From a virus: a stretch of DNA of 29,369 nucleotides. The notes beneath the pieces are model-generated. The model made no database searches. It was not told where the DNA came from and worked only from the letters and a program-made list of their open reading frames with translations. The position numbers and the translations under genes are program-made. Positions 13,686 through 17,712 of this stretch are shown piece by piece (position 1 is the stretch's first letter; every line of letters begins with the position of its first letter). Location of the stretch: the IMG/VR virus record IMGVR_UViG_3300028844_002621, positions 1-29,369 of that record; one strand, written 5' to 3'.

Positions 13686-13909
13686 AATTTTATTGCCAAT
13701 ATAGTTAGTATTGCTATTAACAATACGTTAGTCATAAAGATGCCTATGGCTAGTATTGTATGATACCATATCCATCTAGTTTTGTATGCGTTCTCAATCG
13801 TTACTTCATCAGGATCTACATCATCCTTCATCATGTCAATAACGACTGTTTCTTTCTTAATCTCAATTGGTTCTGGCTTCTTCCAGAATTTAGTTAACCA
13901 TTCTCCCAT
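13682..13909 (-). CDS. Small single-span membrane protein, 75 residues
   Basis: The N-terminal ~50 residues are charged and soluble (KKPEPIEIKKETVVIDMM); the last 25 form one strong membrane segment (TILAIGIFMTNVLLIAILTI). A C-terminal anchor with a cytoplasmic N-terminal domain is predicted. It sits between glycosyltransferase and epimerase with TAATG and ATGA overlaps, so it could tether them at the membrane, but that is only context. Confidence 0.75.
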   Translation of the reverse strand: MGEWLTKFWKKPEPIEIKKETVVIDMMKDDVDPDEVTIENAYKTRWIWYHTILAIGIFMTNVLLIAILTILAIKL

Positions 13910-15261
13910 TATAACCCTTCAAATAGTTGTGCCGATTGTGTAGATGATACAGTTTCGGGAGGTTGAAAATAAGGATCCGTTGTCAACCATGTATCTGTAT
14001 CGGTATAACAAACAATAAACTTATGTTTGTTTGTTAATACACTCCTTACATCATCAATGCACATTGTACCTCTGTTCAGACTACTAATATAGTCTGCGTG
14101 ACTTGTTGTGGCATGATTTAATATACCTGCAGTAGAATTATTTGACTTTTTACTTATAAAATTATTGAAACATGCAATCCATTTCTTAGCAATTAGTTGT
14201 TCTTGTGCATTGTAGTGTTCTAATGCACCTAACTTATAATAAGACTCTGCTGTAGGATATTCATTATAAAGTGCGGAGATGATCTCTGCTACACTACTTT
14301 TGTCTCCTACATAATAATACTTATCATCAAAGTTTTTTAACCATCGCATTCCTTCAAATGCAACAGTTGGTAATTGAATATGCTGTTCTAAAAATGCAAT
14401 ACCATAACTTTCAACAGTGCTTGGATTAAATGCGACTCTTGCACTAGTGATAAAGTTAACCTTTTCTTGTCCTATAATACCTGACTTAATCTCGTAATCT
14501 ACGCCCATATCTTTTAATCGTGCTTCAAATTTCTTAGCACCATTTGCGTTAGTCATAACTTTAGCAGGTAGTTTAGTCTGCTCAATAACTTTTAAAAAGT
14601 CTTCAGGACCTTTTCCTTCTTCCCATCTACCTATATAAAGTACACCTGTTCTTTCTTTGTTATGTTCTTCTAACAAACCAGGTTCGGGTAATGGAATAGG
14701 TAAATGTACTCCTTTAAGTGTGCCTAGTATCTGTGCATTAAATTCACTTTGCGTACCGATAGTTGTATTCGGCATTTGCATTTGTAATCTCATTGATTGA
14801 TTCACGTTGTCTAAGAAAGGATTTTTTGTATTCTCAAATAACTGACTTTCTAAATGTGTGTAGTTGATAATTTGAATACAATCTTCTAATCCAATCTCAG
14901 ACATCAAACGTGAAGTCTCATATGTATTACATACGATAGAATCATATAAGTTAGATTCTAAGGCTTTGATCACTGAGTTTCTAAAGTTAATCATGCGTTC
15001 TAAACAGTAACTATCACCATACATAAAGATACCTTGATGTTTAGAATAAGACAAAGGATTGTCTGTGTAGATAAATCTAGCACCGTCGTTCTGCAAAGTC
15101 TTAGTAAACTCTGTATGTTTGTCAAACTTGTCTGTAATGATATCAACTTTGATATTATTATCCTTCATTTGCTTTACGAAACTTAAAGCAAACTGTCCTA
15201 TGCCCCCATGGGGAATAAGATGTTGATATGACATTAAGAATGCTATGCGTTTATTGTACAT
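13909..15261 (-). CDS. Glycosyltransferase, GT4-like (GT-B fold)
   Basis: A 450-residue GT-B type enzyme. The N-terminal domain opens with RIAFLMSYQHLIPHGGIGQF, a typical acceptor-side Gly-rich loop. The C-terminal domain has GVLYIGRWEEGKGPEDF and FNPSTVESYGIAFLEQ, the retaining-enzyme E-x7-E signature that binds the nucleotide-sugar. The final ~80 residues are an extension of unknown role. An upstream ATG at 15312 lies well inside the preceding gene; the ATG at 15261, with GGGAGAG four bases upstream, is preferred. Acceptor unknown; likely a glycan or modified DNA base, as with other phage glycosyltransferases. Confidence 0.75.
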   Translation of the reverse strand: MYNKRIAFLMSYQHLIPHGGIGQFALSFVKQMKDNNIKVDIITDKFDKHTEFTKTLQNDGARFIYTDNPLSYSKHQGIFMYGDSYCLERMINFRNSVIKALESNLYDSIVCNTYETSRLMSEIGLEDCIQIINYTHLESQLFENTKNPFLDNVNQSMRLQMQMPNTTIGTQSEFNAQILGTLKGVHLPIPLPEPGLLEEHNKERTGVLYIGRWEEGKGPEDFLKVIEQTKLPAKVMTNANGAKKFEARLKDMGVDYEIKSGIIGQEKVNFITSARVAFNPSTVESYGIAFLEQHIQLPTVAFEGMRWLKNFDDKYYYVGDKSSVAEIISALYNEYPTAESYYKLGALEHYNAQEQLIAKKWIACFNNFISKKSNNSTAGILNHATTSHADYISSLNRGTMCIDDVRSVLTNKHKFIVCYTDTDTWLTTDPYFQPPETVSSTQSAQLFEGL

Positions 15262-15445
15262 GTCTCTCCCATACCCAAGCACCGGCACCAAGATATCTAA
15301 CCTTTTTACCACCCGCTTTTTCTGTGTATTCGTCTTGTACGTCTACACCTTCTCTAAAGAATTCTCGGTCTTGTTTACCGGGATTATCTGCTAACCAAAG
15401 TTTCTTAGCATCTATCATTAAGTAATATCCGTCATTAGTATTCAT
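15251..15445 (-). CDS. Hypothetical protein, 64 residues, probable leaderless message
   Basis: Not recognised. Charged and soluble, with KLWLADNPGKQDREFF and a C-terminal YLGAGAWVWERH. The ATG at 15445 lies only six bases after the -10 box of a perfect consensus promoter, so the message would begin at or within one base of the start codon. A second in-frame ATG at 15418 is an alternative with GGA upstream. Its end overlaps the glycosyltransferase start by 11 bases. Confidence 0.65.
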   Translation of the reverse strand: MNTNDGYYLMIDAKKLWLADNPGKQDREFFREGVDVQDEYTEKAGGKKVRYLGAGAWVWERHVQ

Positions 15446-15451
15446 TTAACT

Positions 15452-15480
15452 ATTATACTTCCTCTCATCTTTAATGTCAA
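15452..15480 (-). promoter_or_regulatory. Perfect consensus promoter TTGACA-N17-TATAAT
   Basis: TTGACA (15475-15480) and TATAAT (15452-15457) on the minus strand with a 17-base spacer, a full match to the sigma70 consensus. The predicted start falls on the ATG of the gene ending at 15445. Confidence 0.85.
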
Positions 15481-15493
15481 CAGTAATGTACCC

Positions 15494-15519
15494 AAAAAGG
15501 AAGGACCTTTCGATCCTTC
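15494..15519 (-). terminator. Intrinsic terminator with C(GAAA)G tetraloop
   Basis: On the minus strand GAAGGATC-GAAA-GGTCCTTC (15500-15519) folds into an 8-bp stem (one G-U pair) capped by a GNRA tetraloop, then CTTTTT. It ends transcripts from the promoter at 15624-15652 or from upstream genes, and separates them from the promoter at 15452-15480. Confidence 0.8.
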
Positions 15520-15617
15520 TACAATTATCTCATATATTATATACGTTCGGCCCATATTTATAATTTTATGTCCTAACTCGGCTGGGAATTCCCGTCAGGT
15601 GTGTATTCGCATTCATG
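15494..15617 (-). ncRNA. Candidate ~120-nt small RNA between promoter and terminator
   Basis: A perfect consensus promoter (15624-15652) would start an RNA near 15617 that ends at the tetraloop terminator at 15494-15519. The 5' part can fold: CCTGAC pairs with GTTAGG around the self-complementary GGGAATTCCC. It also holds a 16-codon frame (15566-15616) whose ATG is 7 bases after the -10 box, so a leader peptide is possible. A TATAAATA late-type motif lies inside (15555-15562). I do not recognise a known riboswitch or phage RNA family. Confidence 0.5.
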
Positions 15618-15623
15618 TCAGTA

Positions 15624-15652
15624 ATTATATCACCGACTAGATATAGTGTCAA
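15624..15652 (-). promoter_or_regulatory. Perfect consensus promoter TTGACA-N17-TATAAT
   Basis: TTGACA (15647-15652) and TATAAT (15624-15629) on the minus strand, 17-base spacer. The -35 box starts two bases after the stop codon of the gene at 15654-15875. It drives the candidate small RNA at 15494-15617. Confidence 0.85.
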
Positions 15653-15653
15653 G

Positions 15654-15875
15654 TTAAATTATAGAGTCCTCAGACTTTTTTACCCAATTAATTTTAATAC
15701 CACGTCTTTCTAATTCTCTAATAGCCTTTGCTCTACGTTTTTTATTTGGATTATCTTTGTTTATTTCTTCAAGTAGTTCTTCTTTAGAAATATTTTTAAT
15801 ATAGTAATGTGTTGTAGTTACTATCTTAGTACCTCTTTGAAGTGTGCTTTGTGATGGTTTAAATTTAGTCGGCAT
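15654..15875 (-). CDS. Hypothetical basic protein, 73 residues
   Basis: Not recognised. The protein is strongly basic, with a helical region KEELLEEINKDNPNKKRRAKAIRELERRGIK expected to form two helices joined by a Lys/Arg patch, which suggests nucleic-acid binding. Its start overlaps the upstream 55-residue basic protein by TAATG. Confidence 0.7.
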   Translation of the reverse strand: MPTKFKPSQSTLQRGTKIVTTTHYYIKNISKEELLEEINKDNPNKKRRAKAIRELERRGIKINWVKKSEDSII

Positions 15876-16062: not shown

Positions 16063-16554
16063 TTAAATTTCGACTGTAGTAGTCGGCTCCTCTATTTGAA
16101 GTAGTCCTTGCGGTGGATTATTATGTCCAATCATGCTATCACTACTTCCAATAAATTCTTCACGTTTGCCGTCCCAATTTTTGAGGGCATCTTTAATACT
16201 TGCTTCTGCTAACACACTACAATGTAACTTAATAGGGGGCAATTCTAATGCTTTTGCTATGTCTCTGTCTTTGATTAATTGTGCTTCTTCTACAGTCTTG
16301 CCCATTAACATTTCAACAAACATTGTTGAACTTGCTATTGCACTACCACAACCATAAGTTTTGAATTTGACATCAACAATCTTTTCGTCTTTGTCTAATT
16401 TGAGTTGCAGTTTCATTACGTCACCACATGCCGGCGCACCTGTCATTCCAGTTGCTACGTCTGCATCATTTGGATCAAATCTTCCTACTGCATGTTTTTC
16501 AGGATTTTGAAGGACATCCTCGAACCTTTTTACTACTTTATCTGAATATGCCAT
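16063..16554 (-). CDS. iscU: IscU-type Fe-S cluster scaffold protein
   Basis: A 163-residue protein closely matching IscU. All key elements are present: GAPACGDVMKLQ (Cys43 and the conserved Asp45), KTYGCGSAIASS (Cys69), the HscA-chaperone recognition motif LPPIK, and KLHCSVLAEASIKDAL (Cys112). IscU assembles [2Fe-2S] and [4Fe-4S] clusters with IscS and passes them to target proteins. The N-terminus has the usual Y-x-x-x-V-x-x-x-x-E/D-type IscU beginning. A ~35-residue C-terminal extension follows the usual end, ending in an acidic/Pro-rich tail. It lies two genes downstream of queE on the same strand; QueE needs a [4Fe-4S] cluster. No IscS, HscA or ferredoxin is present, so it would use host partners. 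Confidence 0.92.
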   Translation of the reverse strand: MAYSDKVVKRFEDVLQNPEKHAVGRFDPNDADVATGMTGAPACGDVMKLQLKLDKDEKIVDVKFKTYGCGSAIASSTMFVEMLMGKTVEEAQLIKDRDIAKALELPPIKLHCSVLAEASIKDALKNWDGKREEFIGSSDSMIGHNNPPQGLLQIEEPTTTVEI

Positions 16555-16821: not shown

Positions 16822-17712
16822 TCATTTGCCTATTGCATTACCATAGATATGAACGTGTACTCTGCTTGTATAAAAGTACCCTCTTCTAATGGCTTCATCT
16901 GCAATGGTTGCTTCAGTTTGTACTAGCCCTTCATATGTTCCACCTACTCCCATGATCCATACAGGATAATCACACCCTGCTTCTCTAAACAGTTTAGTAT
17001 TTTCTTCTACTTCACGCCAACTCTCGTCTGTGCCATTGACTACATACTTTAACTGACCATGAGGACTTACTTCAGCATATTTACCTATTACTTCAGGCTT
17101 GATTGCTTTCTTAGATTTCTCACCAGCAGTTGCCCATAGTTTAGGACTGAGTGACCAATACCATTCTCTACCGTCAGACCAACGAGAATACTCACGTTGT
17201 ATCCATTCAGCAAATTCGTCCGTGATAGGTCTAGTGCCATTTGTTTCTACAGTCACATTCATAGGTTGATTGTCTCTGCGTTTGAATTCTTCTATGACTT
17301 CGATCATGCCAGGCTGTGTGCCTTTGATCATTGGCTCCCCACCAGTAAACACCATGTGTGATGATTGTCCTGTTGCTGGATGTATGAACTTACCATGAGG
17401 GAGAAGTGCTGTCAGTTCGTCTACTGCTTCTGTTACAGTCTTATCAGTAATAAGATGCTTGTACTTCTTACTCCATGTGTAAGAACTATCACAACCTTTG
17501 TCAAATACAGGAAGATCAAACACACTATCTATGTTTGTGATATCGATAGTTTCATAAGGGAGTTCATATGTTTCTGGATTAGTAGGATCTTTCTGACCAA
17601 AGCCATTGCATTGTAGATTACATAAAAAGAATCGCATCCATAATGACGGGATGCCTACGTATTGTCCTTCACCTTGTGCTGAAAAGAAAGTTTCACTATA
17701 CTTTAGTGTCAT
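16822..17712 (-). CDS. queE: 7-carboxy-7-deazaguanine synthase (QueE), radical SAM
   Basis: A 296-residue enzyme that converts 6-carboxytetrahydropterin to 7-carboxy-7-deazaguanine. It begins with the QueE signature SETFFSAQGEGQYVGIPSLW and contains MVFTGGEPMI (the SAM-binding GGE) and VTVETNG. The cluster cysteines are split: Cys31 and Cys35 (FLCNLQC), then a 38-residue insert before Cys74 in GCDSSYTW, where ordinary QueE has C-x3-C-x2-C-D-S/T directly. The protein is longer than the usual 210-250. The start at 17712 has GAGG six bases upstream and overlaps the small membrane gene. Promoter at 17867-17895. Confidence 0.9.
   Translation of the reverse strand: MTLKYSETFFSAQGEGQYVGIPSLWMRFFLCNLQCNGFGQKDPTNPETYELPYETIDITNIDSVFDLPVFDKGCDSSYTWSKKYKHLITDKTVTEAVDELTALLPHGKFIHPATGQSSHMVFTGGEPMIKGTQPGMIEVIEEFKRRDNQPMNVTVETNGTRPITDEFAEWIQREYSRWSDGREWYWSLSPKLWATAGEKSKKAIKPEVIGKYAEVSPHGQLKYVVNGTDESWREVEENTKLFREAGCDYPVWIMGVGGTYEGLVQTEATIADEAIRRGYFYTSRVHVHIYGNAIGK

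Follow-up and report, generated by a model that had tools for sequence, protein, structure and literature searches.

A conserved promoter-to-terminator unit in an uncultured phage, predicted to be a micropeptide mRNA

Results and Discussion

A small, conserved transcription unit upstream of a glycosyltransferase-like gene

In the uncultured virus record IMGVR_UViG_3300028844_002621 (positions 1 to 29,369; all 29,369 bases were analyzed and are called the window here), we found a mini-gene of ~160 bases in which a strong promoter is followed by a reading frame of 16 codons and a terminator. As judged by comparison with related contigs, this conserved small transcription unit is a real feature of the phage, and we predict that it is most likely the mRNA of a micropeptide. 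All of its elements lie on the minus strand in the order P1, ~105 nt, terminator, and P2. The features referred to below are as follows (positions in the window):

15624..15652, minus strand: P1, predicted promoter of the unit, TTGACA-17-TATAAT with an extended -10 (TGA TATAAT), 12/12 consensus
15566..15616, minus strand: micro-ORF MNANTHLTGIPSRVRT, 16 codons plus TAA, in-frame ATG and core kept in relatives
15576..15602, minus strand: 27-nt near-invariant core ACACCTGACGGGAATTCCCAGCCGAGT, 0-1 mismatch in all relatives
15572..15599, minus strand: possible, weakly indicated hairpin inside the ORF, CCUGAC-GGG-AAUU-CCC-(AGCCGA)-GUUAGG
15545..15555, minus strand: 11-nt block AUGGGCCGAAC after the stop codon, invariant in all relatives
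15494..15519, minus strand: intrinsic terminator GAAGGATC-GAAA-GGTCCTTC plus CTTTTT (stem-loop 15519-15500), 8-bp stem and GAAA loop
15452..15480, minus strand: P2, predicted promoter of the downstream gene, TTGACA-17-TATAAT, 12/12 consensus, conserved in relatives
15251..15445, minus strand: 64-aa ORF with P2 as its presumed promoter, leaderless, with the ATG 6 nt past the -10
13909..15312, minus strand: glycosyltransferase-like gene (Pfam PF00534, E 1.3e-4, below the curated cut-off)

A preliminary description of this DNA had listed two perfect promoters and, between them, ~100 bases followed by a terminator with an 8-bp stem and a GAAA loop, and we located every one of these elements. The 16-codon frame that it placed 7 nt past the -10 box was likewise confirmed, with the ATG at 15616. 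Past the frame, the sequence is AT-rich and includes the block AUGGGCCGAAC ahead of the terminator; the internal TATAAATA pointed out earlier is also present between the frame and the terminator, but it is absent from the relatives and thus not conserved.

Promoters and terminator

Perfect promoters (spacer of 16-18 nt) occurred three times in the window; 500 dinucleotide shuffles averaged 0.058, and not one of them (0/500) reached three. Among the five distinct complete versions of the unit, the P1 hexamers match the consensus at 12/12 positions in four and at 10/12 in the fifth (L002); identities in the P1 spacer are 3-8/17 in the most diverged pairs and 12/17 between the window and L006. 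P2 matches at 11/12 positions in L012. The earlier view of a perfect promoter as exceptional in such phages did not hold up, as a 128-kb relative has a dozen. At least five perfect promoters were also seen within the few kilobases upstream of the homologue of a 73-aa gene in L120, L121, L122, L124, L125, L128, L149, and L150.

The terminator stem carries compensatory changes in L002 and L012 (A-U to G-C, U-G to U-A, and C-G to G-C). Terminator-like sites alone were not above chance (1 found vs 1.6 expected), and L013 has a terminator at the same place though without the RNA, this terminator being all that lies between its 73-aa gene and the glycosyltransferase. In L096 (from 1531), L097, L098 (from 4941), L099 (from 5220), and L013 (4940-4981), the terminator overlaps the promoter: its hairpin contains the -35 (TTGACT or TTGACA), and its T tract supplies some of the 17 nt that lie between this -35 and TATAAT or TAGAAT, an arrangement that amounts to a very compact operon junction.

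Distribution of the unit

Searching IMG/VR with the neighboring proteins and four DNA patterns, we found the unit in 11 other contigs; a lack of conservation in close relatives had been named beforehand as one refutation of the preliminary description, and the unit passes this test. In every relative, P2 and a glycosyltransferase follow directly after the unit, and the gene that precedes the unit differs: L003 and L012 have a SET-like gene where the window has the 73-aa gene. When the RNA was used as a query against seven carrier contigs, each gave one match. At the equivalent place in more distant relatives (L013, L096-L099, and L369), the RNA is missing. Looser DNA patterns for diverged copies returned the same 11 contigs from IMG/VR along with matches that we judged to be unrelated, as were those that a 16-base pattern gave in genomes of bacteria and archaea, and a similarity search of 50,697 phage records with the RNA yielded no relative and short chance matches only. 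A covariance model of the RNA, run over 60 sources, gave two matches outside the clade below E 0.01, both of which rest on the terminator. Rfam had been proposed as a check, and no known RNA family matches the RNA: with Rfam 15, no family reached the gathering score in the window or in ten relatives, and a permissive search (E 10) of 15440-15700 returned only a chance match to JA03, outside the RNA.

Promoter-terminator units of other phages were considered as relatives and rejected as unrelated; several of them encode a protein of 50-55 aa. A conserved protein of this size (core LNSLERAN), served by a strong promoter and a terminator of its own, was seen in related phages at L070:201+, L102:2262-, L120:1970-, L124:501-, L150:1368-, and L029:76+. 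Other phages that carry NifU have even shorter promoter-terminator units (47-60 nt from the -10 to the stem; L036:197-, L037:3404-, L048:242-, and L064:4041-), which lie near a divergent perfect promoter on the opposite strand and contain no obvious gene.

A micro-ORF with a conserved core

The core HLTG[I/V]PSRV and an in-frame ATG are present in 5/5 distinct complete versions, and the predicted peptides (MNANTHLTGIPSRVRT, MITTHLTGIPSRVRT, MVTTHLTGIPSRVQDI, METLHLTGIPSRVQDI, and MITIHLTGVPSRVRIQR) are 15-17 residues long. The changes seen in the core are one Ile-to-Val replacement and one synonymous GTT/GTA difference. Residues at the N terminus are free to differ between versions, and close to the stop codon a +1 indel alters the last residues (RT vs QDI). 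Bases around the ATG differ among the versions, the ATG itself being shifted by one codon in the window. Since only five distinct complete versions exist, a formal coding signal is absent for the micro-ORF. Frames of 15-17 codons are near or under the length cut-offs of the usual gene callers.

The ATG lies 7 nt past the -10 box in the window, 6 nt in L002, and 9 nt in L012, and the other two versions (L003 and L006; 2/5) have a 5' leader with a Shine-Dalgarno sequence, AGAGGAG, 9-10 nt before the ATG. An ATG so close to the -10 would be unusual for many phages. Corresponding distances for other genes of the window or the 128-kb relative are 6 nt for DNA polymerase (promoter 10/12), 5 nt for a J-domain protein, and 6 nt each for two small genes, the 64-aa gene behind P2 and a 54/56-aa gene; other genes on the same contig have a ~30-nt leader with a Shine-Dalgarno sequence. 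Because leaderless and Shine-Dalgarno-led genes both occur in the group, the micro-ORF fits the start layouts that the genome itself uses. Leaderless genes are apparently common in these phages (window 17895-17867 and 15480-15452; L373:17236, L375:9230, and L373:2308). Having its own promoter, a start codon, and a conserved frame, as a micropeptide gene should, the 16-codon frame is probably a gene.

We somewhat favor the reading that the unit is a self-contained phage mini-gene, a short mRNA that encodes a trans-acting peptide. Comparison shows how far the unit extends, its promoter P1 and terminator, the conservation of the frame, and that other genes of the group are laid out as leaderless, whereas transcription, early timing, translation, and peptide action are inferred. 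Host sigma-70-type RNA polymerase would initiate at P1, ~6-8 nt past the -10 box, and the ATG would therefore be at or adjoining the 5' end of the RNA in this phage. The RNA would be ~120 nt long, and its terminator probably serves to end the upstream operon as well. In the window, the RNA would be a leaderless mRNA whose translation gives a peptide of 16 residues (core HLTGIPSRV), and in L003 and L006 a normal Shine-Dalgarno sequence would be used in place of the leaderless start. The peptide may then act in trans, probably early in infection, on a host or phage target.

Constraint on the RNA and alternative explanations

The unit could instead produce a non-coding or dual-function regulatory RNA, in which the 27-nt core and AUGGGCCGAAC work by RNA pairing or protein binding and the frame is incidental or secondary; we regard this, the main rival reading, as possible but doubtful. 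Such an RNA would be consistent with the invariance of the nucleotides, wobble positions included, and with the conserved 11-nt block outside the frame, which the peptide alone leaves unexplained and which hints at an RNA role. Moreover, the fourfold sites of the core are unchanged in L012 whereas those of the neighboring glycosyltransferase gene are ~40% different between L012 and the rest, pointing to a constraint on the RNA itself. Core invariance alone is not extraordinary, because the glycosyltransferase gene itself contains a 38-nt invariant run; in terms of sequence, the telling measure of core conservation is the contrast with its own flanks. The +1 indel within the frame leaves the lower stem of the possible hairpin intact in L003 and L006 as CCUG..CAGG plus a bulge, and the 40-nt hairpin stretch within the frame reaches a z of -2.2 vs shuffles, but this stretch was picked after inspection, and the core pairs never vary. 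While the whole RNA folds only weakly better than shuffles (z -1.4), the RNA upstream of the terminator folds no better than they do (z +0.26), and the foldable 5' domain of the preliminary description finds no support as a notable fold. Among the start regions of the phage, where a trans-acting antisense sRNA could have a target, none pairs with the RNA better than shuffles, an Rfam match is lacking, and an in-frame ATG with a Shine-Dalgarno sequence or leaderless placement in every version would not be expected. On balance, the observations speak more for a small coding RNA than for one that is purely non-coding. That a leaderless RNA has a dual function, its 27-nt core encoding the micropeptide and, with AUGGGCCGAAC, forming an undescribed family of RNA elements, seems rather unlikely to us. 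As a candidate, a type III toxin-antitoxin RNA was rejected: the core is present as a single copy with no tandem repeats, and downstream are the 64-aa ORF and the glycosyltransferase-like gene, not ToxN.

The preliminary description had offered a small RNA or a leader peptide. A small RNA is the better supported of the two, in the form of a coding one, and an attenuating leader finds no support. In a cis-acting leader, translation of the micro-ORF would control whether transcription passes the terminator and enters the glycosyltransferase genes; the order of promoter, short frame, terminator, and gene is that of a classical attenuator, and GGGCC in the window could pair with GGUCC of the 3' arm of the terminator. 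We nevertheless consider attenuation quite unlikely, because in the relatives P2 separates the terminator from the next gene and the antiterminator pairings are weak and lineage-dependent: the candidate pairing is lost in L002 and L012 as the terminator stem changes, its energy is within the range of shuffles, and the best pairings differ between lineages. The core holds no single-amino-acid run, and a conserved antiterminator competing with the terminator, by which an attenuator would be recognized, was not found. Finally, P1 and the frame might be a relic or by-product, left from a lost gene and retained by shared ancestry, which would agree with the confinement of the unit to one clade and with the lack of the RNA at this position in L013, L096-L099, and L369. 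However, the P1 hexamers and the core are kept despite the ~40% difference at fourfold sites and flanks that are replaced or bear indels; a relic is disfavored and, in our estimate, very improbable.

Relation to known phage peptides and small RNAs

The unit, which we take to be a micropeptide mRNA, is a new and so far nameless family within the phage small genes (PMC11323111) or the phage small RNAs (PMC12197685). Over 2 million phage small genes or proteins under 100 aa have been predicted (PMC11323111), and the micro-ORF belongs to this general kind as a small conserved reading frame without an assigned function; it differs in that no other gene shares its promoter and terminator. Phage-encoded small RNAs include VpdS and PreS (PMC12197685). 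Like these, the unit corresponds to a short, terminator-ended RNA that is predicted to be separately transcribed, whereas the RNA here carries a conserved start codon and frame. Stp of phage T4 is a 26-residue anti-restriction peptide that acts on a host system (PMC12409349). It is likewise a very short phage peptide, from a large T4-type phage, but it is longer; a sequence link is not expected, and membership is not claimed. The Rfam motifs of marine phages comprise wcaG, PhotoRC-II, and CfrI (PMC9964418), and the unit likewise specifies a small RNA of an aquatic phage, with a nucleotide-sugar epimerase gene nearby that recalls wcaG, but at E 10 the RNA itself still had no match in Rfam.

Because gene callers routinely drop 16-codon frames, most phage micropeptides that have a promoter of their own go unnoticed. 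The unit illustrates how such genes can be recognized in uncultured phages from their leaderless placement, the conservation of the promoter, and covariation in the terminator. The present case is directly testable, since the limits of the transcript are defined.

Neighboring genes and phage affiliation

The 64-aa ORF has 81-88% identity to its relatives and gave no Pfam or PHROG match; it is missing in L012, where P2 leads directly to the glycosyltransferase. The glycosyltransferase-like gene is ~88-94% identical in the relatives that carry the RNA. In L003 (4107-4643) and L012 (4308-4799), the SET-like gene (named by eye from its sequence) separates the 73-aa gene from the RNA unit, and P1 overlaps the 3' end of the SET-like gene. 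A cyanophage origin was considered, as BUCT-ZZ01 carries a relative of the glycosyltransferase; nine related records yielded no member of the photosystem reaction-centre family, and rhizobial phages have the nearest DNA polymerases (~50% identity). The window also encodes a NifU-like (16063-16554) and a QueE-like (16822-17712) protein, auxiliary metabolic genes that lie in one cluster.
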